From NCBI GenBank assembly GCA_004195515.1, contig PSPR01000011.1, positions 1 to 35,266 on the forward strand: DNA of 35,266 bases, written 5' to 3'. Position numbers and translations under genes: made by a program. Shown here in pieces: positions 4,166 to 18,125 of this stretch. The first letter of the stretch is position 1. The number at the start of each line of letters is the position of its first letter. The stretch is from Methanobacteriota archaeon (GTDB lineage Archaea > Thermoplasmatota > Poseidoniia > Poseidoniales > Poseidoniaceae). The notes under the pieces were generated by a model. That model saw only the letters and a list, made by a program, of their open reading frames with translations. It was not told the DNA's origin and searched no databases.

Positions 4166-5719
4166 TCAAGACAATTTAGCTTTTTTTGCTTGGGCATCCT
4201 TGCCGACCTCTCGTAAGAATCTCTCTCTGAGTGCTTCGTGTAACCACATTCCTTCCTCGAGTTCGAGTAGCAAGCCGTAGGAGAGAAGGTTTTGTGGGGG
4301 TTTTCCTTGCCAAGAAACCGCTTTTGCTAATTTTTTCCACGGAATCGGTTTTTCGCTCAATGCCAGCATCGCCAATAAATCATGTTCGTCGGGTGGCATC
4401 TGAGTGATGATTTCCTCGTCCAAAAATCTCAGCCAATCGCCATGGGTTGTCTGGCCATATAATTCCAATAACTCAAGCGCTAACGGGTGACCTCCGGTTA
4501 GACGGTGAACATCTTCAGGAGAAGGTGTATCACCAGTCATCTGGTCGACCCATGTTCCAATCTCGTCGAGTGAGAGTCCCTTGAGGGGTAATTCTTCGAC
4601 GATATTTCTGGTGTGAACATCTCGACGATCGTATACATCTAAGGTAGTTCTGGAAATCAATAATAATCGTAGTGGGGATTTTGTAGAAATATCAAGAAGC
4701 GCGCCGAGAAGGTTCCTTGCTTCACCGATGATATGGTGAACATCATCCAAGACTATCAGCCAATATGGGGGCGGTCCGCCGGGCTCACCTTTGAATCGCT
4801 CCCTGATAGCACCTGCGTCGGTCAGATATGCAAGCAATCTTCGCCGCCATGCATCAACATCAAACTCTGCCCCGGGCGTTAGAGGTAAAGTATCCATCAA
4901 TTGGTATGGGTCGTGTTTTTCATCGACCCCGAATCTATGAAGCAAAGATACCGCAAGTCCTACGGATTTATCCCATGGCTGGCAAGGATACCAACATACC
5001 GATAAATGAGGTTCTTTTTTCATAAAGCCATCAAGCCAATTAGCCACTAATGTAGATTTACCAATTCCAGCAATGCCATGGACAACCATACAGGGTTTTC
5101 TTTGAGTAAACCACTCTTCAATATTCGAGGTTTCGTCCTCTCGGCCGTGAACCGGCCGGGTTTTTGGCGGTTCGGTATGATAGGTTGCATGGGCACCAGC
5201 AAGTAGGGTTAAACGGCCAGGGGGTGGTAAGCCATCCTCATCGTCACGGTTTTTCTGAATTGGTCCAAAACGAATATCACCATAGGTCAAAACCCCTTCG
5301 TGTTGAGAATGCAATAGAATTTGCAATAGGGAAAGGTTGGCTTCCAAGCGCTTGGACGCCTCCCATCCTTCGATTTCAATCAATTTTCCATCGTGGTCCC
5401 GAATCAATACCTTGGTCGAAGATAAATCCGCTAAACGATTTCGAGCGGTGGTTCTGCCATCTTCGGTTAATTGCCAAGTTTTTTGCCGCCTATCATCACT
5501 TTTAATCGAGCGTGAGTGCTCGCTAACCAGCCGATTTCGCAATAATCCTCTCATCGCCCGCGAAACATTTGGAGGATGTTGGGCGCAAGCTTCTGCAATG
5601 CCTGGGCGGGTTAGAGCGATGGTGACCACGAAACGATCCGCTTGGTGATCTTGCTCAAGCAAATGCAGCAAAATTCGGTCTTTGACCGCGATATTTACGC
5701 GTGGGAGGTCGCCGGCCAT
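4166..5719 (-). CDS. N-terminal winged-helix + STAND-type NTPase (putative regulator)
   Basis: N-term MarR-like wHTH ('RFVVTIALTRPGIAEACAQHPPNVSRAMRGLLRNRLVSEHSRSIKSDDRRQKTWQLTEDG'); Walker A 'VVHGIAGIGKSTLVANWL', Walker B 'YWLIVLDDVHHI', arginine-containing sensor strand 'LRLLLISRTTLD', STAND 'TGGHPLALELL'. Confidence 0.82.
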   Translation of the reverse strand: MAGDLPRVNIAVKDRILLHLLEQDHQADRFVVTIALTRPGIAEACAQHPPNVSRAMRGLLRNRLVSEHSRSIKSDDRRQKTWQLTEDGRTTARNRLADLSSTKVLIRDHDGKLIEIEGWEASKRLEANLSLLQILLHSQHEGVLTYGDIRFGPIQKNRDDEDGLPPPGRLTLLAGAHATYHTEPPKTRPVHGREDETSNIEEWFTQRKPCMVVHGIAGIGKSTLVANWLDGFMKKEPHLSVCWYPCQPWDKSVGLAVSLLHRFGVDEKHDPYQLMDTLPLTPGAEFDVDAWRRRLLAYLTDAGAIRERFKGEPGGPPPYWLIVLDDVHHIIGEARNLLGALLDISTKSPLRLLLISRTTLDVYDRRDVHTRNIVEELPLKGLSLDEIGTWVDQMTGDTPSPEDVHRLTGGHPLALELLELYGQTTHGDWLRFLDEEIITQMPPDEHDLLAMLALSEKPIPWKKLAKAVSWQGKPPQNLLSYGLLLELEEGMWLHEALRERFLREVGKDAQAKKAKLS

Positions 5720-5825: not shown

Positions 5826-8800
5826 ATGCAAGCGGTAAGAATTCATGCTATCGTCTTGGCCGGCTTGATGCTTGCGATGATTGGATTATCTTTTGCTTCT
5901 GCTGCTGACACCGATGGCGATGGAGTAGAGGACTCGAGCGATGATTGTCGATATTCAAGTGGAAATTCAACCGTCGATAGGACGGGGTGCCCCGATAGAG
6001 ATGGTGATGGCACGTCGGATTGGAATGATGGTTGGACCAGTTCCAACCCTAATTTCGCCAAAGAAGTTGCCATGACATCTTCATTTGATTATTGGGATGT
6101 AGACCATTCACCCGATGGCCTATATGTGGTCTCCTCTGATGAGAACGGCTATATCAGAGTTAGAGCGGCCGATACTGGAATTATTATTCGCTCCGCTCAA
6201 GCATTCACCGATGATGCAACCCAAGTTGCTTGGTCTGGAGATGGCCAATACATCGGGGTTGGAACCGATGGCCAAGATACTGCAAAAATTTACTGGGCAA
6301 GCAACTTAACCGAACTTCACTCGGCGATATCTACCGATGTTGGAAGTGGTGATGAAATAAAAGATCTAGCATTTTCAGATGATGGGACAATGTTTGCCAT
6401 CGCGATCGGCAGAAGCGGTAATGGTGGAACCAATGGCGTTGTTCGAGTAATCAATTCCTTAACTGGAGTGGTGCTGAATAATGCCAATCCTGGTGGCGAA
6501 GACCGTTTTTATAGCGTTGCTTTTTCCCCAAGCGGCACCCATTTGGTTGCTGGTGGAAACGGTGAGGCGTATGTCGTTGAAACCACTAATTGGACTACAA
6601 CTCGGACTATGAGTGAGTCTTCTGGAACCGTCAATGATGTCGCATGGTCGCCAGACGGCAAGAGAATCTCGGTTTGTGAAGGCTATGCCTCAGGTGGTTC
6701 AAAATTACGGATGTTTAACACCGATAATTGGGTCAATACTTGGACCAAAGACTTCTCTACTTCTTGTCTCTCTACCGACTTTTCCCCCGACAGTACTCAA
6801 GTTATCTTTGGTGGAAGTTATTACCAATCAGATGGCGCTTCTTCGAAGATTTTTGATGTCGATACCGGTAATGGTGTCGATGATATAATACAACCTCGGC
6901 CTAATAATTGCCAAGGAACCTCAGGTAATAATTGCGGTAGAACCTATGGTTTGAGCTGGTCCCCAAGCGGGGAAAGAATCGCCCAAGCATTTGGAACTAA
7001 TGACGAAGGTTTTTACCTATGGTTTGCGGATCTAGACCCCGATAACGACGGCTGGAATACCTCGGATCAAGGCGATGGTAGGTCTGACGAATTCCCTGAC
7101 GAAGGCACTCAGTGGAACGATACCGATTCGGATGGATATGGCGATAATCCACTCCCTGCATTCAAAGGTGATGCTTGTCCAACAACCTGGGGTAATTCCT
7201 GGCAAGACCGCTTTGGCTGTCCTGATGGTGATGGTGATGGATACTCTAACGAAGGAGACCTCTATCCAGAAGATTATCTCCAATGGGCCGATAGCGATGG
7301 CGATGGCTATGGCGATAATTACTATTACGATGTTCAACCATTTACCGAATTACATCTAAACCAAAGCGGGGATGCATTCCCGATGGATAGCAGCCAATGG
7401 AATGATAGCGATGGCGATGGCTGGGGCGATAATTTCGCCGATTCATCTTGGGTTGATTACCGCCCAGCCGATTGGCCGGGAGAACTCGACTCTAGTGCCG
7501 CAGCCGTCGACAAATTCCCACTTGACCGCTACCAATGGGCCGATACGGATGGAGATTGGATTGGCGATAATGAAAACACGCCACGTTCTGACGCTTGTGT
7601 GAACACATGGGGTAATTCTTCCAATGATAGACTAGGTTGTATCGATGGAGATGGTGATGGTTGGTCCGACCCAACCTCTGATTTCCTAGCTCATCCTCAA
7701 GGCGATGCTGATGCTTTTCCTCAAGATCCTACCCAATGGCGAGATTCTGATGGCGATGGTTTCGGCGATAATTCAACCGGTAACGACCCTGATGATTGCC
7801 CAGGTGAATATGGCTTGTCATCAATAGATAGGGTCGGATGTGCCGATACTGATGGCGATGGTTGGTCCAATTCTGGCGATCCATTTCCGCTAGACCCAAC
7901 TCAATGGAAAGACCGAGATAGTGACGGGTACGGTGATAATCCTGATGGAAACGAGCCTGATGTTTTCCCTGACGACTCCGGTCAATGGGCTGATACCGAT
8001 AGCGATGGTCACGGTGACCGAGCGGTTTTACCCGATGGCGACTTTTATCCTAACGACCCAACTCAATGGAGTGATTTCGATGGTGATGGTTATGGTGACA
8101 ATAAGGATGGAAGCAATGGCGACCAATGTCCTGAGGTATATGGCAAATCAACTATTCCTGAAGCTAGAGGTTGCCCTGATACCGATAATGATGGAGTGGT
8201 AGACCCATACGATGCTTTCCCTGAGGATTATTATCAACAAACCGATGCTGATGGTGATGGTTGGGGCGATAATCAAGCGGTTCCTAATGGTGATGAATGC
8301 CCGGATGTTCCAGGCAATAGCACCAATAATTCCCGCCAAGGCTGTCCTGATGCCGATGGTGATTCTTGGGCTGACGAAGATGATATGTTCCCCGATGATC
8401 CTATGCAATGGGAAGATACCGATCTCGATGGATGGGGTGATAATTATGGCTTCATCAACAAATCGATTGCCGACTTGGATAATGAAGGTGAGATGATTAC
8501 CATTCGCGAACAATGGGGAGATGCATTCATTTCTGACCCTTCACAATGGGCTGATAGCGATGGTGATGGATTAGGAGATAATGCAACTGGAAGACTACCT
8601 GATGCCTTCCCATTCAGAGCGACCCAGTGGGCCGATACCGATGGTGATAACTTTGGTGATAACCATATGATCGGTGCTTACCAGCCTGACGAATGTGAAT
8701 TCAAATATGGAACGTCGACTGTGGATTTCTTCGGTTGTCCTGATTATGACGAAGACGGGGTTTCTGACAAAAGCGATCCTTGTCCTTACGACCCGCTGAT

Positions 8801-9245
8801 TTCTGCCGGTCTCAAGAGTGTGGTTAAATGCGCAGCTATCGATGATCATGATAACGATGGAATTCCAAACGATATCGATGAAGATTATGCTCAAAATTCT
8901 GATGCAGGATTCAATGCAATCGGTAGTCAATTAATGATATTAATTGGCCTGAGTGTATTTTTATTAGTTGTTATTTTAATCGCAATGATCGCAAAACAAG
9001 CCGGACGAAGAAAGGCTGCATATTCTCGAGCAGAAGATATGAAAGTTTCAGCAATGTTTGCCGAAGAAGAGGGACGTAAGCAAGAGTGGATCGACTTTTA
9101 TGTCAGTCAAGGTGATACTGCAAAGGCCAAGGAATTAGGTTGGACTCCTCCTGCTGAATTGGCGCAATGGCAGCAGCTTCAGCAAGCAGATGAAGCCCAA
9201 GCAGAAGCGGCGATTCCTCAGATGTTAGAACTTGATGACCTTTGA
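5826..9245 (+). CDS. Secreted/membrane-anchored surface protein: WD40-like beta-propeller + about 12 TSP3-type Asp-rich repeats + C-terminal TM and cytosolic tail
   Basis: Signal-like N-term 'MQAVRIHAIVLAGLMLAMIGLSFASA'; propeller motifs ('VAWSPDGKRISV'); repeated 'QWxDxDGDGxGDN'; TM 'LMILIGLSVFLLVVILIAMIAKQAGRRK'. Confidence 0.88.
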   Translation: MQAVRIHAIVLAGLMLAMIGLSFASAADTDGDGVEDSSDDCRYSSGNSTVDRTGCPDRDGDGTSDWNDGWTSSNPNFAKEVAMTSSFDYWDVDHSPDGLYVVSSDENGYIRVRAADTGIIIRSAQAFTDDATQVAWSGDGQYIGVGTDGQDTAKIYWASNLTELHSAISTDVGSGDEIKDLAFSDDGTMFAIAIGRSGNGGTNGVVRVINSLTGVVLNNANPGGEDRFYSVAFSPSGTHLVAGGNGEAYVVETTNWTTTRTMSESSGTVNDVAWSPDGKRISVCEGYASGGSKLRMFNTDNWVNTWTKDFSTSCLSTDFSPDSTQVIFGGSYYQSDGASSKIFDVDTGNGVDDIIQPRPNNCQGTSGNNCGRTYGLSWSPSGERIAQAFGTNDEGFYLWFADLDPDNDGWNTSDQGDGRSDEFPDEGTQWNDTDSDGYGDNPLPAFKGDACPTTWGNSWQDRFGCPDGDGDGYSNEGDLYPEDYLQWADSDGDGYGDNYYYDVQPFTELHLNQSGDAFPMDSSQWNDSDGDGWGDNFADSSWVDYRPADWPGELDSSAAAVDKFPLDRYQWADTDGDWIGDNENTPRSDACVNTWGNSSNDRLGCIDGDGDGWSDPTSDFLAHPQGDADAFPQDPTQWRDSDGDGFGDNSTGNDPDDCPGEYGLSSIDRVGCADTDGDGWSNSGDPFPLDPTQWKDRDSDGYGDNPDGNEPDVFPDDSGQWADTDSDGHGDRAVLPDGDFYPNDPTQWSDFDGDGYGDNKDGSNGDQCPEVYGKSTIPEARGCPDTDNDGVVDPYDAFPEDYYQQTDADGDGWGDNQAVPNGDECPDVPGNSTNNSRQGCPDADGDSWADEDDMFPDDPMQWEDTDLDGWGDNYGFINKSIADLDNEGEMITIREQWGDAFISDPSQWADSDGDGLGDNATGRLPDAFPFRATQWADTDGDNFGDNHMIGAYQPDECEFKYGTSTVDFFGCPDYDEDGVSDKSDPCPYDPLISAGLKSVVKCAAIDDHDNDGIPNDIDEDYAQNSDAGFNAIGSQLMILIGLSVFLLVVILIAMIAKQAGRRKAAYSRAEDMKVSAMFAEEEGRKQEWIDFYVSQGDTAKAKELGWTPPAELAQWQQLQQADEAQAEAAIPQMLELDDL
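7020..8860 (+). repeat. In-frame tandem coding repeat (TSP3-like, QWxDxDGDGxGDN)
   Basis: Repeated DNA of the form caatgggccgatagcgatggcgatggctatggcgataat across the ORF; units vary in length and sequence. Confidence 0.85.
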
Positions 9246-9977: not shown

Positions 9978-10037
9978 CTTCGCTCACCAATTGCACGCAC
10001 CGCATGACTTCTAAGTGATGAGGTCCAAGGGGGTAAT

Positions 10038-12548
10038 ATGGCCCGAGAGCGTATGCTGGCTGTTGTTTTGGTCGGCTTGATGCTAGTGGTAATTCCCACT
10101 AGTGCAACCGAAGGGGAAAACCTCTCATTGGATTTGACTTTTGATGAAGTTCCAACCAACGGTTGGTTCTCATCTTCAGATGTTGTGAAAGTGTCGGCTT
10201 CTTTGGTCAATAATGGCGATGCTACAACTATCGATACCGACCCATCTTGCGGTCAATTTTTACAGATATTTCAAAATGATGTCATGATTTTTGATGGTAG
10301 CATTGCTTGTAATGCTCAGTCACGTGGTATGAATATCGCATCTGGTTCAACTACTCAATTCCCACAATTGACTTGGGATTTATTTGATGACGATGGCCAA
10401 TTAGTCAGTCCTGGCACTTATATCGTCGAATATGTTATTGCGGGCGAAGAGATCACCAATCGAATGGAAATTAATATTCAAACACCATTGAGCGTACCTG
10501 AAGGGTTTGAATTGGAATCGACAATCAATTCCCGTGGTTCAGGCTCACCGGCTATTTTGACTCTAAGAGCTCTAAACACCCTTGGTGTAGAAATGGATTT
10601 CACCCTTGAAAAATGTTTGATTAATATCGACGGCATCCTCTATGGCGAGTGCTTCGATGGTGCGACTCTCGCTCCTCATGAAATTAGATTAATCAGACAT
10701 ATTCCGCTTAAATTAACCGCCGGCAGCCATCAACTCGAGGTTGCGTTGGGCGATGGCCTTCTGAGCAGAACCATCGAATATACGATGGAATCATCAACTC
10801 TTGGTGTGTCGAATGGTGACTTATCTCAAGCTATTATCGATATTGATATCGATGATGCTGACCTCAGTTTTGGTGAAGATCAAGTTATGTCATCGACGGT
10901 AAGGGTCAGCAATCTTGGAGCTTCCGATATCATATTGGATTTCAGCGATACATGTAGAGGTGAAATGTGGGTCATCGATGAGGCTGGACAAATCGTTATG
11001 GATTCTAGGCTTGTCAAAACTTGTGATGAAATGGATTTGCAATATTTGATCGCCCCTGAACAATCTCGAACATTTTCTCAACCCGATTGGGCCTTCACTA
11101 ATTTGGAGGGCTGTTTGGTATCGCCTGGAACTCTGACCCTGATCGCCGAAATTCCTGAGCATGGATTATTCGGTATGGAAGAGATTGAATTGGAGCGGGC
11201 TCAAGGAATTGCTTGTGGCCAATCAAGCCTAAGCCTTTCACAAATTCAAAGTTCAAACCAAGACCAACTTGAGGTTGATTTGGAATTAACAAGCCTTGAG
11301 GCCACCGATCTTACTTGGATGAGTGCTTGTGGAATAGAATATATTTTCTCTGGGCCTCAAGGTGAAATCACTCGAAGTCTTAGCGAATGTGGAAAATCTT
11401 CCTCTCTAAATCAAAGGGTTGGACCAAGCATCCAATTAGACCGGATCGACTTTGATATGACCGGCTTTGAAGATGGAGACTATACTATTGAAATCACCTC
11501 AAACTCCGAGCCTAAATTTTTCTCGGTTCAAACCTTTTCGTGGCCAATAGAACAAATTGAAGCCGAAGAAACCACTACTGAAGTGGAGGAAGAAGAAAAT
11601 ATTGTCGAATCGAGAATTATCGAAGGGGTTTGGAGTTCCATCACGACCGATGATGGATTGTGCTGGTTATTGACCAGCCCAGATGAAGGCTTGACCACAT
11701 TGTCTAATCCAAGCCAGTCTTGGAGCCCACAGGCTGGTTTCCAAGGAAAATATTTGGTTAAGTCAAGCGCTAAATCAACCGAATGTTCTGCTTTCGATGC
11801 CTCATCGTTTGAAGTTGAACAAGTGATTTCCGAATTAGCGCCCGCCCCGGTTGAAGAGGATGAAGAAATTATTCAAAATGAACCGATTGCCGAAGATTCA
11901 GCCGTTCTCAACCCAGTAGTAATCACGGTTGGAGCCGTGGTGGTAAGCACCGGAATTCTATCCTTATTGGTCGCGGTAATCGCTGGTAATGAAACTTGGA
12001 GAATTCCGATTACGAGTGCTGGATTATGGTTCTTAGGATTGATTGGTCGAACTAGCGAAACTAGTGATGGCCGCTACCAACGCGGCCGATTGATGGGGTA
12101 TTTGACCGCGAATCCGGGTTGTCATTTCCGTGGCTTGATGGCTGCGCTTGAAATGTCGAACGGACAGATAACCCACCATCTCAAAGTATTGGCTGAAGAA
12201 GAGATCATCTGGCGGCGTGCCGATGGGCGATTGGTCAGATTCTATCCATTTACTTCAAATATTCATCCCGGTATTGACGAGGAAGACCTGCCTTTACCGC
12301 CATTATCGCCTGACCCGAATAGCCTTCAGGGCAAAATTCTCCGTCTGCTCGATGATGATGGTCAATTGGAAGATTACCCAACCCAGGCTGAATTGGCAAA
12401 TAGATTGGAGCGTTCGCAACAATTGGTCAGCCATCACTTGCGTACCCTGCAAAAGTTTGGTTTGGTCGAAAAGAGAAAGATTGGATTGAAAAACCGATAC
12501 CTCTTGACCAAGGAAGCAACCTTCTTACTCGAATCTACTGAGTTATAA
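10038..12548 (+). CDS. Membrane-anchored protein: signal peptide, tandem Ig/BsuPI-like ectodomains, TM segment(s), two cytosolic winged-helix HTH domains
   Basis: N-term 'MLAVVLVGLMLVVIPTSA'; BsuPI-like 'LVNNGDATTIDTDPSCGQFLQIFQNDVMIFDGS..TTQFPQLTWDLFDDDGQLVSPGTYIVEY'; TM 'VVITVGAVVVSTGILSLLVAVIAG'; HTHs 'LMGYLTANPGCHFRGLMAALEMSNGQITHHLKVLAEEEIIWRRADGRLVRFYP' and 'TQAELANRLERSQQLVSHHLRTLQKFGLVEKRKIGLKNRYLLT'. Confidence 0.85.
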   Translation: MARERMLAVVLVGLMLVVIPTSATEGENLSLDLTFDEVPTNGWFSSSDVVKVSASLVNNGDATTIDTDPSCGQFLQIFQNDVMIFDGSIACNAQSRGMNIASGSTTQFPQLTWDLFDDDGQLVSPGTYIVEYVIAGEEITNRMEINIQTPLSVPEGFELESTINSRGSGSPAILTLRALNTLGVEMDFTLEKCLINIDGILYGECFDGATLAPHEIRLIRHIPLKLTAGSHQLEVALGDGLLSRTIEYTMESSTLGVSNGDLSQAIIDIDIDDADLSFGEDQVMSSTVRVSNLGASDIILDFSDTCRGEMWVIDEAGQIVMDSRLVKTCDEMDLQYLIAPEQSRTFSQPDWAFTNLEGCLVSPGTLTLIAEIPEHGLFGMEEIELERAQGIACGQSSLSLSQIQSSNQDQLEVDLELTSLEATDLTWMSACGIEYIFSGPQGEITRSLSECGKSSSLNQRVGPSIQLDRIDFDMTGFEDGDYTIEITSNSEPKFFSVQTFSWPIEQIEAEETTTEVEEEENIVESRIIEGVWSSITTDDGLCWLLTSPDEGLTTLSNPSQSWSPQAGFQGKYLVKSSAKSTECSAFDASSFEVEQVISELAPAPVEEDEEIIQNEPIAEDSAVLNPVVITVGAVVVSTGILSLLVAVIAGNETWRIPITSAGLWFLGLIGRTSETSDGRYQRGRLMGYLTANPGCHFRGLMAALEMSNGQITHHLKVLAEEEIIWRRADGRLVRFYPFTSNIHPGIDEEDLPLPPLSPDPNSLQGKILRLLDDDGQLEDYPTQAELANRLERSQQLVSHHLRTLQKFGLVEKRKIGLKNRYLLTKEATFLLESTEL

Positions 12549-12617: not shown

Positions 12618-15428
12618 ATGTCAGATTACATCCCACAGGCAACCGAGAAGGCTTGGCAACAAGCTTGGGAGGATGCTAAGATATTCCATGCCGAGGTCGA
12701 TGAGGGCCGGCCAAGTTTTTACTGCTTGGAGATGTATCCGTACCCATCAGGAAAAATGCATATGGGTCATGTTCGCAATTATTCGATCGGAGATTCTGTC
12801 GCCCGATTCAAGCGAATGATGGGATTCAATGTCATCTACCCGATCGGTTTCGATTCCTTTGGGATGCCGGCTGAAAATGCTGCAATCGCCGAAGGCGGAC
12901 ACCCCCACGATATTACCGAGAGAAATATGGTTTCTATTACCGACCAGATCAAACGAATGGGTTTCTCATATGATTGGCGTAGGGTCTTGAAAAGTCACGA
13001 TCCGCGATATTATCGTTGGAATCAATGGTTCTTTTTGCAATTTTTTGAAAGTGGTTTAGCTTATCAAAAATATGCTCCTGTCAATTGGTGTGATTCATGC
13101 AATACCGTATTGGCTAACGAACAGGTCAAGGCTGGTCGTTGTTGGAGATGTAATGGCCCGGTCGCACAAAAAGACATGAGTCAATGGTTTTTGGATATTA
13201 CAAAATATGCTCAGGAATTACTCGATGGCTTGGAGACCATCGATTTTCCCGAAAATGTGAAATCGCTTCAGCAGGATTGGATAGGCCGCTCCGAAGGAGT
13301 GGACATCGATTTTAGAATCGAAGATTCCACAGATAAAATCCGAGTTTTCACAACTCGGCCCGACACCCTTTTTGGGGTGACATTTGTTACTCTGGCTCCT
13401 GAACATCCACTTGCACAACAATTGGTCAAGGATGGTGAATTTGAGTCGGATTGGCAACAACTCCATGATGAAATTATCGTGATGAGCGAATTTGACCGTA
13501 TCAAAAATATGGGCGCGAAAAAGGGTTGCCCAACCGGTAAATTTGCAATTCATCCATTAACTGGTGATAAAATACCAATTTGGATCGGCAATTTCGTAAT
13601 CGCATCTTATGGAACCGGTGCAGTGATGGCGGTCCCAGGCCATGACCAGCGAGATTTTGAATTCGCTCAATCCTATGGCCTCCCGATAAAGCGAGTATTG
13701 GTAAATACCGCAGAAGGAGATGAAAACGCACCATTAGAGCAGGCCGAAACCGAATATGGTTGGATGGTCAATAGCGGCAAATTTGATAGATTATTTGGAT
13801 CTGAAGCAATAGCTGCTGTTATCGCTGAATTAGAATCAAAAGATAATGGCCTAGGTGTTGTAAATTGGAAGATTCGACCATGGCTTATCAGTCGTCAGCG
13901 TTATTGGGGAACTCCTATTCCAATCATTCATTGTACTGATTGCGGTGCTGTTCCTGTGCCGGTAGAGCAATTGCCGGTAGAATTACCGCGCGACGTGGTT
14001 TTTGATGGTAAAGGAAACCCATTGGAATCATCAGCTTCGTTCTGTGACGTAGATTGTCCTCGGTGTGGAAAGACCGCCTGCCGAGAAACCGATACGATGG
14101 ATACTTTCGTCGATTCTTCTTGGTACTTTTTACGTTATACCGATTCGATGCAAGACGAGCAATGTTTCGATGCTACAATCGCCGATTATTGGATGAATGT
14201 TGATTTTTATTGTGGTGGGATTGAACATGCACAGATGCATTTGATCTATGCTCGATTTTGGACCAAAGCCCTCAGGGACCTTGGTTTGCATAATCACGAT
14301 GAGCCATTTCAAGAATTATTATGCCAAGGCATGGTCAACAAATCAGCACCATGGTGTGATGATTGTGGAATTACTCTGAATGTCTCGTACCTTGGTCAAA
14401 ATTGCCCACATTGCAATTCACAATTGACTCAAAGAACTGCAAAAATGAGCAAGAGTTTGGACAATACTGTATCTCCGGAGGAAATGATCGAACGCTTCGG
14501 CGCAGATACCGTGCGTTTATTCATCCTCTTTGCAGCAAATCCAACCGCTGGAATGGACTGGTCGGATTCTGCATTGGAAGCAAATCACCGTCAAATGATC
14601 CAGCTTTACAATATTCCTGAAGCGATAATGGCATGGGATGGTGGCGAATCGGAAATCGATACTTGGATGATGGCACGTCTCAAGCAACGAAGTCAAGAAT
14701 GGCAAACCGCAATGGCTGAATATGATATTCGCGGTTCGGTTGAGGCGAGTCATTTTGATCTGATCAAAGATGTCAACTGGTACCGCCGTCGCGGTGGCAA
14801 CAATCCTGAAACCGGATTATTGGTTTTGGACGCTTGGGCTCATATGATCTCTATTGCAACCCCTCATTTGGCTGAGGATTGGTGGAAGGCGCTTGGAAAT
14901 GATGGATTGATTGCTGCGAGCACATATTGTTGCCCAGGAATTATGATTGCGCAAGAGAGGGAAGCCTTAGCATCAGAGACCTATTTGCGTATGTTCTTAG
15001 AACAAGCAAGGAAGGTTGCAAAGGTTGCAACCAAGCATATCGGTGGGCCACCAAGTTCTGCATTAGTTCACATATCAAGGGCTTGGAAGCGTGATTTGGC
15101 TAGTGCTGCAATAAGACACGTCGCGGAAGGGAAAAATGTCAAAACATTTGTTCAAACACTCGCTGACTTGGAGATTGCTCAAGGGGAGAAGCGTGGCGAA
15201 GTAATGGGATTCTGGGGCAAGAGAATGCTACCACAAATTTTCAAATGGTCGGATCTTGAAAAAAATATGATCTGTGGAAATATGAATGAATCCGACATCT
15301 TAAATTCTGCCAAAAAATTCATCTGTTCCGAACTTGGCCTTTCAAATGTTGAAATCGAATTTGGAACCGAAGATGTTGGCCGGTCTGGATCTGCGATGCC
15401 TCTAGCTCCGGTCATCGTCTACAGTTAA
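12618..15428 (+). CDS. leuS: Leucyl-tRNA synthetase, bacterial-type catalytic core
   Basis: 'YCLEMYPYPSGKMHMGHVRNYSIGD' (HIGH), 'GRSEGVDIDF...VFTTRPDTLFGVTFVTLAPEHPLA' editing domain, 'RETDTMDTFVDSSWYFLRY', 'KMSKSLDNTVSPEEMIERFGADTVRLF'. Confidence 0.97.
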   Translation: MSDYIPQATEKAWQQAWEDAKIFHAEVDEGRPSFYCLEMYPYPSGKMHMGHVRNYSIGDSVARFKRMMGFNVIYPIGFDSFGMPAENAAIAEGGHPHDITERNMVSITDQIKRMGFSYDWRRVLKSHDPRYYRWNQWFFLQFFESGLAYQKYAPVNWCDSCNTVLANEQVKAGRCWRCNGPVAQKDMSQWFLDITKYAQELLDGLETIDFPENVKSLQQDWIGRSEGVDIDFRIEDSTDKIRVFTTRPDTLFGVTFVTLAPEHPLAQQLVKDGEFESDWQQLHDEIIVMSEFDRIKNMGAKKGCPTGKFAIHPLTGDKIPIWIGNFVIASYGTGAVMAVPGHDQRDFEFAQSYGLPIKRVLVNTAEGDENAPLEQAETEYGWMVNSGKFDRLFGSEAIAAVIAELESKDNGLGVVNWKIRPWLISRQRYWGTPIPIIHCTDCGAVPVPVEQLPVELPRDVVFDGKGNPLESSASFCDVDCPRCGKTACRETDTMDTFVDSSWYFLRYTDSMQDEQCFDATIADYWMNVDFYCGGIEHAQMHLIYARFWTKALRDLGLHNHDEPFQELLCQGMVNKSAPWCDDCGITLNVSYLGQNCPHCNSQLTQRTAKMSKSLDNTVSPEEMIERFGADTVRLFILFAANPTAGMDWSDSALEANHRQMIQLYNIPEAIMAWDGGESEIDTWMMARLKQRSQEWQTAMAEYDIRGSVEASHFDLIKDVNWYRRRGGNNPETGLLVLDAWAHMISIATPHLAEDWWKALGNDGLIAASTYCCPGIMIAQEREALASETYLRMFLEQARKVAKVATKHIGGPPSSALVHISRAWKRDLASAAIRHVAEGKNVKTFVQTLADLEIAQGEKRGEVMGFWGKRMLPQIFKWSDLEKNMICGNMNESDILNSAKKFICSELGLSNVEIEFGTEDVGRSGSAMPLAPVIVYS

Positions 15429-18040
15429 TCCTCATCCAATTCGGGTGGGCGAATTGGTGCGACCAGTTTTGACTCTGGTTCAGGCTCAGGCTCAGGCTCA
15501 TCCTTGCCACCCCAAGTGAGGTAAGCCGCACCCGCAACCATGCCACCTGCGATTACAAATAACCAAACTGCGGCGTTTGATTCGGATTCTTTTTCGGTGA
15601 CCCCTTGGGTTGTATCTTCGTTTTCTTTGAAGTCACAACCAGTACTGGTCACCGCTTGGCCTGGTGCGGTCGCTGGACAAAGGTCGTACAGATTGTTAAC
15701 TCCATCACCATCGTTATCGATCTGAGTGCTCGAACAGCCGTTAGCATCTGCTGTTTGGCTTGAGGGAGTGAATTGACAATCGTCGTCGGTGTCGTTTACT
15801 CCATCATTATCATCATCATCATCTTCAGTAGTATCCAAGCAACCATCTTGGTCTAGATCCATTCCCGTTCCAGCGACACCGATGATACCTTGCGGGCAAT
15901 TGTCTTCTGAATCGGGATAGGAATCACCGTCCTCGTCGGTATCCTCGATTCCATCTCGACAACCATCGCCGTCGTAATCTTCGCTACCGTTCCAACCGAT
16001 CTCGCCTTGAGAGCAATCATCGAAAAGGTCGAGAACACCGTCATTATCATCGTCGCTATCACGATCTTCGTCTCGGCAGCCATCACCATCGTGGTCATTT
16101 GAGTTTTCGCTTATCCAAATTGGAGAATCGCGTAGGCAATTATCGAATTCATCCAAGATCGTATCGCCATCGGTATCGTCTTCACAAGCATCCCCAATAC
16201 CATCGCCGTCTAAATCGGCTTGATCGTCTTGCAAGTTTGGACACGTGTCCAATTGATCAACAATTCCATCGCCATCGCTATCTACATCTTCACACCCATC
16301 TTGGTTCTCATCGTTCTCCAGGGTAGAAAGCCAACCTAAAGAACCGGTTTGACAAAGGTCGTACGTATCGAGGATTCCATCTTCGTCGTCGTCGTAATCC
16401 TCTCCCGCATCTCGACAGCCATCGCTATCAAAATCGGTAGAGTTAGATGATTGCCATCCAAGTTCGCCCGGATTACAATCATCCCAATCATCTCCAACAC
16501 CATCGTCATCATCGTCGTCATCGCACGCGTCTCCAAACCCATCGCCGTCGGAATCGAGTTGGTCTGGGTTTGCTACTCGCTGACAATTATCTGCACCGTC
16601 GGTCAAACCATCATTGTCTTGGTCACGAGCATAAAGCCACAAGGAAATATCGCTTTGGCCGGCCGTAGTTAAACTGAAATTTCCAAAGGCTGCGGTTTCC
16701 TCGAATGTTGATGCGATCACCGGGGAATTATTTTCTCCTAATATAATTGCTAAACCTCTGTCATCACCGCTACCTCCGGCTGCAGTTGCCCACACCCATT
16801 CATCATCTGAGCTGAGTTGGGCCAATACTACATCGCGCTTATCTCCGTGAGAATCAATATTTGGTAATGTGTCTAAACCGAGGTCGAAAGCACCGGTATA
16901 GGATCCAACAACGTATGCGTTATCTTGATTATCGATCGTGATAGACTCCAAGGTTTCCCAACCACCACCGCCTGCGGTGATTACGTCTTCCCAAGCGCCA
17001 TTTGAAGAAGCGCGGGCATGGAATAAATCCCACCAGCCATTTGATGTGACATTTAGATGGCCAAAGGTCGCGGTCTGTGCAAATTGTCCAACCAGCCTGA
17101 TTTCACCTTCTGAATCGACCGCACAATCATTGACCCAATCGTCACCTTCGCCTCCAGCGGTCAGCGTCCATGTGAAATTTCCGTCACCATCAAATTGAGC
17201 GACGTAAAAATCTGAGCCGCCAACTGCGAATTTCATATCAACAAACATTATCGAAGCAATAAAAGTCCCCACCGAATGTAAATACCCTGAATCTGAATAA
17301 CATAATCCACCAAATTTTTCGATCCCATCTGGGCTTGCAATACCGTTGACCCAAAGAATTTGGCCGTTTTCATCATAGGTGATTATTCCGAGGCTCACGC
17401 CTCCTGCTCCAGGGATGATCAAACCGTCAAATTCCAACAATCCGCGATGAAGGATCGAAACCGAAATTGCTCCAGAAGGAGAAATTGCAATACTTTGAGC
17501 CGAAATATCATTTTGATTGGAAATCGATTTCAACCAGATGAATTCAAACCCATTATCGGTAAATGAAACCCGGCCGATAAATCCATCACCTTCTTCTGAA
17601 TCAGCATTCTTTGAAAGATTGAATCCACTGGTGAAATTGGCTTCGCAGGCTTCACCTGCAGTACCTAAACAAAAATGACCAGCAATGATGAAATCGCCAG
17701 ATGCGAGACGGGCGATAGCATCTATTCCATCGTCGCCTTGGCTCCCCCACCCGACGTAATCGGTCCAATTGCCGCTGCTATTCGCTCGTGCAAGGTACAT
17801 GTCAAAATCATTTTGAAATCCGGTCGCACCAATACCACCATCCTCAAATGAAATAGCGGTCATAAAGGTCCCTGCAATTATGGTACTTCCATCATCGAGT
17901 GTTATTATCCCTGCTATCTCTTCGTTTTCGAACCCACCGGCACTTGCTGCCCAGCCTAAAGCCCCGGTTCCTTCCCCTTCGGCCAAGGCCGTCGGTACAA
18001 GCATCGATATTACAATCAAGGCAACTATTGTTCTACGCAT
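15425..18040 (-). CDS. Secreted/membrane-anchored surface protein: SBBP-like beta-propeller + TSP3-type Asp-rich repeats + C-terminal TM
   Basis: Signal 'MRRTIVALIVISMLVPTALA' (ATG at 18040; ORF can extend to 18064); repeated '..WAASAGGxxxDxxxxI..' blocks; 'NCQRVANPDQLDSDGDGFGDACDDDDDDDGVGDDWDDC' TSP3 repeats; TM 'AAVWLFVIAGGMVAGAAYLTW'. Confidence 0.87.
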   Translation of the reverse strand: MRRTIVALIVISMLVPTALAEGEGTGALGWAASAGGFENEEIAGIITLDDGSTIIAGTFMTAISFEDGGIGATGFQNDFDMYLARANSSGNWTDYVGWGSQGDDGIDAIARLASGDFIIAGHFCLGTAGEACEANFTSGFNLSKNADSEEGDGFIGRVSFTDNGFEFIWLKSISNQNDISAQSIAISPSGAISVSILHRGLLEFDGLIIPGAGGVSLGIITYDENGQILWVNGIASPDGIEKFGGLCYSDSGYLHSVGTFIASIMFVDMKFAVGGSDFYVAQFDGDGNFTWTLTAGGEGDDWVNDCAVDSEGEIRLVGQFAQTATFGHLNVTSNGWWDLFHARASSNGAWEDVITAGGGGWETLESITIDNQDNAYVVGSYTGAFDLGLDTLPNIDSHGDKRDVVLAQLSSDDEWVWATAAGGSGDDRGLAIILGENNSPVIASTFEETAAFGNFSLTTAGQSDISLWLYARDQDNDGLTDGADNCQRVANPDQLDSDGDGFGDACDDDDDDDGVGDDWDDCNPGELGWQSSNSTDFDSDGCRDAGEDYDDDEDGILDTYDLCQTGSLGWLSTLENDENQDGCEDVDSDGDGIVDQLDTCPNLQDDQADLDGDGIGDACEDDTDGDTILDEFDNCLRDSPIWISENSNDHDGDGCRDEDRDSDDDNDGVLDLFDDCSQGEIGWNGSEDYDGDGCRDGIEDTDEDGDSYPDSEDNCPQGIIGVAGTGMDLDQDGCLDTTEDDDDDNDGVNDTDDDCQFTPSSQTADANGCSSTQIDNDGDGVNNLYDLCPATAPGQAVTSTGCDFKENEDTTQGVTEKESESNAAVWLFVIAGGMVAGAAYLTWGGKDEPEPEPEPESKLVAPIRPPELDED
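15640..16620 (-). repeat. TSP3-like coding repeat block
   Basis: Repeated 'DxDGDGxxDxxDxC' units in the 15425-18040 CDS. Confidence 0.8.
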
Positions 18041-18125
18041 ATTGTGGCCAAATCGTACTAACACTTGAATGAATGCACATCTGGTGCCACAATAATCATG
18101 CCATACTCACCACTGGCAATCAAAT

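Follow-up and report, generated by a model that had tools for sequence, protein, structure and literature searches.

A predicted membrane-tethered tandem winged-helix regulator of marine group IIa archaea and the conserved block ahead of its gene

Transmembrane transcription regulators (TTRs), defined by a DNA-binding domain and a transmembrane (TM) region without a kinase, are mostly single-pass, and the census of Demey et al. 2023 gives an average of 4 TTRs per archaeal genome (PMC10269533). In Sulfolobus, ArnR and ArnR1 are membrane-bound, bind promoter DNA and form multimers (PMC6396743). The one paper found to name HVO_0163, a lysine acetylome study, does so a single time.

Here we analyse the open reading frame (ORF) at 10038-12548 (+) of a 35,266-nucleotide stretch of DNA, termed the window, from Ca. 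Poseidoniaceae (marine group IIa; genome 1.92 Mb, 85% complete). The 836-aa product is arranged as a signal peptide, an ectodomain of ~580 aa, one membrane helix and two C-terminal winged helices, and both helix-turn-helix (HTH) motifs, like the ORF itself, the signal peptide, the ectodomain and the membrane segment, lie where the original prediction had placed them. Judged from its sequence, the protein is a TTR by the definition above: the predicted DNA-binding families PF24266, HTH_5 and HTH_24 all score above their cut-offs, at least one TM region is predicted (residues 628-650), and the Pfam scan returned no HATPase_c, HisKA or Response_reg, as expected of a one-component, non-hybrid regulator. 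The kind of regulator is already known; it is the conserved block upstream of the gene, and the breadth of the family sharing its tail, that go beyond the original prediction.

Architecture and topology of the protein

The predicted features of the protein, with AlphaFold2 abbreviated to AF2, are as follows.

10038..10109 (+): signal peptide, residues 1-24, MARERMLAVVLVGLMLVVIPTSA; family-mean hydropathy peak at residue 15
10122..10478 (+): ectodomain D1, residues 29-147, beta-sandwich with Cys71/Cys91; AF2 pLDDT ~90
10506..10787 (+): ectodomain D2, residues 157-250, beta-sandwich with Cys193/Cys205; AF2
10830..11192 (+): ectodomain D3, residues 265-385, BsuPI-like, with Cys306/Cys329/Cys359; AF2
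11229..11543 (+): ectodomain D4, residues 398-502, beta-sandwich with Cys431/Cys451 and Cys393 just ahead; AF2
11610..11837 (+): membrane-proximal domain D5, residues 525-600, with Cys542/Cys583; AF2
11838..11918 (+): acidic variable stalk, residues 601-627; highest entropy of all regions, pLDDT < 50 at 606-625
11919..11987 (+): transmembrane helix, residues 628-650; family-mean KD19 up to 2.4
11988..12053 (+): juxtamembrane element, residues 651-672, NExxRIPxTxxGLWxLGLxGRT; invariant E652, R655 and W664
12078..12248 (+): winged helix 1 (wH1), residues 681-737, HTH_HVO_0163_N, PF24266; invariant Cys695
12324..12506 (+): winged helix 2 (wH2), residues 763-823, ArsR/MarR-like, HTH_5/HTH_24; AF2 pLDDT ~72-93

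Using 60 orthologs, AF2 models the ectodomain as five beta-sandwich domains with pLDDT near 90, the TM helix and tail being poorly modelled in the same run. Profile comparison with hhalign relates D1 to D3 (probability 98.7%), D1 to D4 (96.5%) and D3 to D4 (90.8%); by this measure at least three of the five domains are related copies. D2 bears a weak likeness to D1 (62%), and the same method finds no relation of D5 to D1-D4. A homology of D5 to short Thalassarchaeaceae ectodomains, which we had suspected by eye, proved unsupported (0.65%). Every one of the 13 cysteines of the window protein (the ectodomain holds 12 and wH1 the last, Cys695) is invariant in 60 of 60 aligned orthologs, evidence for about six external disulfides of putative pairing.

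The ectodomain had originally been described as BsuPI-like, and as perhaps binding proteins, given the inhibitor for which that family is named. The likeness survives in part. The BsuPI profile (PF12690) matches D3 in 16 of the 19 scanned orthologs at E <= 0.01 (best 2.5e-7), but the window protein itself, at 18.0 bits, does not reach the gathering cut-off of 22.9, and the name was over-read. We regard the match as real but weak, and D3 as a probable distant relative at family level rather than a filed member. Both are beta-sandwiches, but BsuPI is a single cytosolic domain, whereas here at least three copies, which would carry disulfides, are predicted to lie outside. Protein binding on the strength of the name was not upheld, given that the profile covers only one domain, below cut-off in this protein, and that BsuPI is cytosolic. 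A full-length Foldseek search brought up nothing beyond generic arrays of tandem beta-sandwiches, such as complement C5 and alpha-2-macroglobulin (TM-scores near 0.13), and was uninformative, and the D3 profile found no match among PDB sequences.

The membrane helix is free of any charged residue in all 60 orthologs. On average across these, the outside flank (598-627) holds 0.4 K/R against 7.8 D/E, and the inside flank (651-690) 5.0 K/R and 3.0 D/E; an acidic outer and a basic inner flank are what an N-outside, C-inside orientation would give. Flank charge and hydropathy thus point strongly to HTHs on the cytosolic side, in support of the proposal of a membrane-tethered one-component regulator and against its HTH region lying outside, the outcome named in advance as its refutation. 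Where the original prediction left room for more than one TM segment at 11906-12050, one good helix stands, but residues 656-670 fall below the 19-residue TM threshold. We rejected this stretch as a second TM segment: it is only 15 residues long, has a KD19 near 0.8 and is flanked by the invariant E652 and R655 and a basic residue 671, and a second span here would place the HTHs outside. Nor does it show clear amphipathicity (moment 0.06). In distant family members the juxtamembrane element has a counterpart of the form TExGxYxxxxxxxPLYS[KR]I.

Turning to the tail, residues 681-737 score 47.3 bits against HTH_HVO_0163_N (curated Pfam cut-off 31), and residues from about 763 to 812 score 44.9 bits against HTH_5 (cut-off 22) and 36.9 against HTH_24 (cut-off 21.9), with PF24266, HTH_24 and HTH_5 all matched by 19 of 19 scanned orthologs. 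The NCBIfam ArsR/SmtB model NF033788 is reached only just (55.9 bits vs 55); as to the metal-binding Cys/His site of such regulators, a Cys-rich version is absent, since wH2 has no Cys and wH1 has Cys695 alone. In a tail-only AF2 run with 27 orthologs, pLDDT was about 72-93 for wH2 and below 55 for wH1; AF2 probably scored wH1 and the TM region low because the alignment is nearly invariant there. The best solved Foldseek matches of the wH2 model are HlyU, SmtB and CzrA, with E values of about 3e-4 to 1e-3. As to whether the HTH segments fold as proposed, sequence and model together support an ArsR/SmtB-like fold for wH2, while the assignment of wH1, poorly modelled (pLDDT < 60), is supported by Pfam; neither result goes against the prediction. 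Both HTH motifs, SNGQITHHLKVL and SQQLVSHHLRTL, sit in near-invariant sequence, and the domain families suggest that the tail binds DNA. Cys695 (12120-12122), the sole cytosolic cysteine, is kept throughout the 60 Poseidoniaceae orthologs and is Val in one Thalassarchaeaceae relative (L165); a redox or metal contact is possible.

The tail family and its gene neighbourhood

Scanning genome contigs with a single sequence returned no relatives; a profile scan of contigs returned 80 loci. A match was present in 59 of 61 relatives, with full-length orthologs in only some of these, and the conservation alignment comprises 60 full-length orthologs, across which architecture and gene neighbourhood are kept. 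Identity to the window protein in the ectodomain is 32-42% within the genus and 23-31% beyond it; for residues 652-836 the corresponding values are 82-86% and 68-80%. A conserved tail joined to a diverged ectodomain is, at the level of sequence, what a receptor would leave that drifts while its output stays fixed.

Matches to the tail profile occur in 76 of 147 Thermoplasmatota genomes, at up to 15 per genome. The majority of 18 examined regions combine a signal peptide, a large ectodomain, a TM helix, the motif E-x-G-x-Y...PLYS[KR]I and two winged helices, and the ectodomains of nine scanned members contain PKD, right-handed beta-helix, CARDB or carboxypeptidase-regulatory domains, or no known domain. 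The predicted picture is of a Thermoplasmatota-wide family with a constant output and an exchanged input. The search for the architecture that had been suggested, run on Thermoplasmatota genomes, therefore finds it widespread and not unique to the window protein. No description of this family appeared in the literature searched, whose coverage stops short of subscription papers, and its novelty is thus not proven.

The window's own genome holds two further relatives, one of 330 aa, which has an acidic linker, and one of 219 aa, which lacks a long ectodomain. In some Thermoplasmatota (L149, L151, L152, L166 and others; G073, G080, G098) there are 13-15 tail matches per genome; in these high-copy genomes the tail sits for the most part on long proteins whose ectodomains differ, as in a lineage expansion.

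As far as the contigs reach, gene order is largely kept across the 80 loci: AAA-HTH (-), WD40-TSP3 (+), a metallo-beta-lactamase fold gene (-), the TTR gene (+), the leucyl-tRNA synthetase gene LeuRS (+) and often a TSP3 protein gene (-). The beta-lactamase-fold gene is missing from about half of them, and WD40-TSP3 then ends 49-83 nt ahead of the TTR start. Three Thalassarchaeaceae loci (L176-L178) keep the order in part. In the window, 5826-9245 encodes a large surface protein with a WD40 propeller and calcium-type repeats, and 15425-18064 one with TSP3 repeats; both have a hydrophobic segment at the C-terminus. Given the conserved order, these two flanking surface proteins may be functionally linked to the regulator. 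The LeuRS at 12618-15428 looks bacterial in sequence (PF13603 editing domain), in an archaeon, and the gene at 4166-5719, which adjoins WD40-TSP3 across the family, combines an HTH-like N-terminus with an AAA_16 ATPase and has the look of a STAND-like regulator.

The upstream block and a proposed mechanism

Immediately ahead of the TTR gene lie two features.

9984..10021 (+): conserved block of ~38 bp, YACnCAYng..TGnACCGctgnCTTtcAagtgatgA; candidate operator overlapping the core promoter
10003..10020 (no strand assigned): inverted repeat in the block, CATGACTT-CT-AAGTGATG; general form within the genus CATnnCTT-CT-AAGnnATG

When 79 upstream regions are anchored on ACCG, the block is sharply bounded, with columns of 2.0 bits inside and ~0.2 bit outside. 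In 69 of the 79, ACC and ATG lie 37-40 nt apart, the remainder reflecting start-codon choice or small shifts. The repeat is perfect in six relatives within the genus (CATCCCTT-CT-AAGGGATG) and reduced to CTTnnAAG outside it; at the Thalassarchaeaceae orthologs the block is not recognisable. An RNA leader or riboswitch was considered and rejected, with no consensus structure from RNAalifold (energy 0.0) and no Rfam match.

In its own genome the window's form of the block has one exact match (0 mismatches), and a search of that genome for a regulon found no second block beyond chance, further matches needing 2 mismatches and being about as frequent as in a reversed control. With a pattern designed on the block of the other genera, which leaves the window's genus unmatched at 2 mismatches, 20 of 58 family genomes were positive with one match each, 19 of the 20 at the TTR start and 1 unrelated, against 0 matches for its control. 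Of the upstream regions compared, that of the TTR gene is the richest in columns conserved at >= 80%, with 26 against 13, 15, 14 and 8 for four neighbouring genes. Boxes similar to CTTTCAAG are conserved ahead of LeuRS and WD40-TSP3 too, and some of the block is therefore probably core promoter. From these alignments we consider the block a new element and a candidate autoregulatory operator overlapping the promoter. The earlier idea of a composite operator fares accordingly by halves: a long conserved upstream block exists, as a putative binding site for the protein. In the short-ectodomain Thalassarchaeaceae relatives (L167-L172) a different upstream block, about GACAAACRCGACAMCCCAMGMSYCTTAWMCC, is conserved ~33-60 nt ahead of the ATG, which suggests a separate control sequence for each type of regulator.

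We think it likely that the protein is a single-chain membrane transcription regulator in which a surface signal modulates the winged helices, and for which the gene's own promoter is the best candidate target. The exported chain would fold outside into its five beta-sandwich domains, with about six disulfides and the acidic stalk; one helix would span the membrane, and the conserved juxtamembrane element would run straight into the two tandem cytosolic winged helices. A surface signal, either a ligand or the state of the envelope, would most likely alter the pairing or membrane placement of two chains, and with it the grip of the winged helices on operator DNA near the membrane. The regulator would then be a tethered dimer or multimer holding DNA at the membrane, and with 9984-10021 as best candidate target it would be autoregulatory. 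Dimer switching, autoregulation and sensing are each things that we infer.

The explanation that competes most seriously overlaps with this one. The protein may be a real membrane regulator whose targets lie elsewhere, such as the neighbouring surface-protein genes, the block then being only a core promoter of unusual conservation or a site used by some other regulator. The partial resemblance of the block to the boxes ahead of LeuRS and WD40-TSP3 fits this, as does the keeping together of WD40-TSP3, TTR and LeuRS across the family; but most of the block (YACnCAY...TGnACCG) is restricted to the TTR gene, where 26 columns are conserved at >= 80% against 8-15 for the four neighbours. We hold this to be a real possibility, though not the one we favour.

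Two other readings concern the tail. Regulated intramembrane proteolysis, in which an outside cut is followed by a site-2 protease freeing the winged-helix tail as a soluble regulator, seems to us improbable. The window's own genome has three matches to the site-2 protease family M50, but such proteins were matched in 14 of 14 control genomes, so that their presence says little; the variable stalk beside a single TM helix could serve as a cut site, yet this most variable region holds no conserved cut motif, and the near-invariant juxtamembrane element suggests that the membrane link carries functional weight. Winged helices can also function as protein interaction modules, and the tail might make protein-protein contacts that anchor a surface protein to a cytosolic partner, as would suit the large ectodomain and the other surface proteins encoded by conserved neighbours. 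We consider this very unlikely, given that both winged helices match DNA-binding families with near-invariant motifs and that the same tail occurs phylum-wide under many ectodomains.

Returning to the tethered regulator acting at its own promoter, a wider and more tentative reading, which we would put forward as conjecture, is that Thermoplasmatota, including the abundant marine group II, possess a large undescribed family of receptor-like regulators with a fixed membrane and tandem-winged-helix output and exchanged ectodomains, of which the Poseidoniaceae version would sense through five disulfide-locked domains and act on its own gene, both winged helices reading a dedicated ~38-bp composite operator there.

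Comparison with known regulators

In the sampled Poseidoniales genomes, response-regulator matches number only about 1-3 and those to HATPase_c about 2-3. In this dominant ocean archaeal group, single-chain membrane regulators may therefore be a main route from surface to gene. The conserved block is a ready DNA probe, which makes a membrane HTH protein open to a direct binding experiment.

Like the TTRs of PMC10269533, the window protein is predicted to carry on one chain a DNA-binding domain and at least one TM region, without kinase or receiver, and it too is single-pass; that paper has 0 occurrences of 'tandem', and no account of the present ectodomain or juxtamembrane motif. With the PF24266 proteins of Euryarchaeota, matches to which are also found in Haloferax, Methanosarcina and Methanocaldococcus, it shares wH1, a member above the curated cut-off. 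ArnR and ArnR1 (PMC6396743) are likewise archaeal membrane-bound one-component regulators with an HTH, but have that HTH at the N-terminus, a HAMP-like and sensing region, two C-terminal TM helices and no large ectodomain. The window protein, whose HTHs lie C-terminal to a single TM helix, is not of the ArnR type (N-terminal HTH, C-terminal TM pair); its domain order is the opposite, with signal peptide and ectodomain first and the HTHs last.
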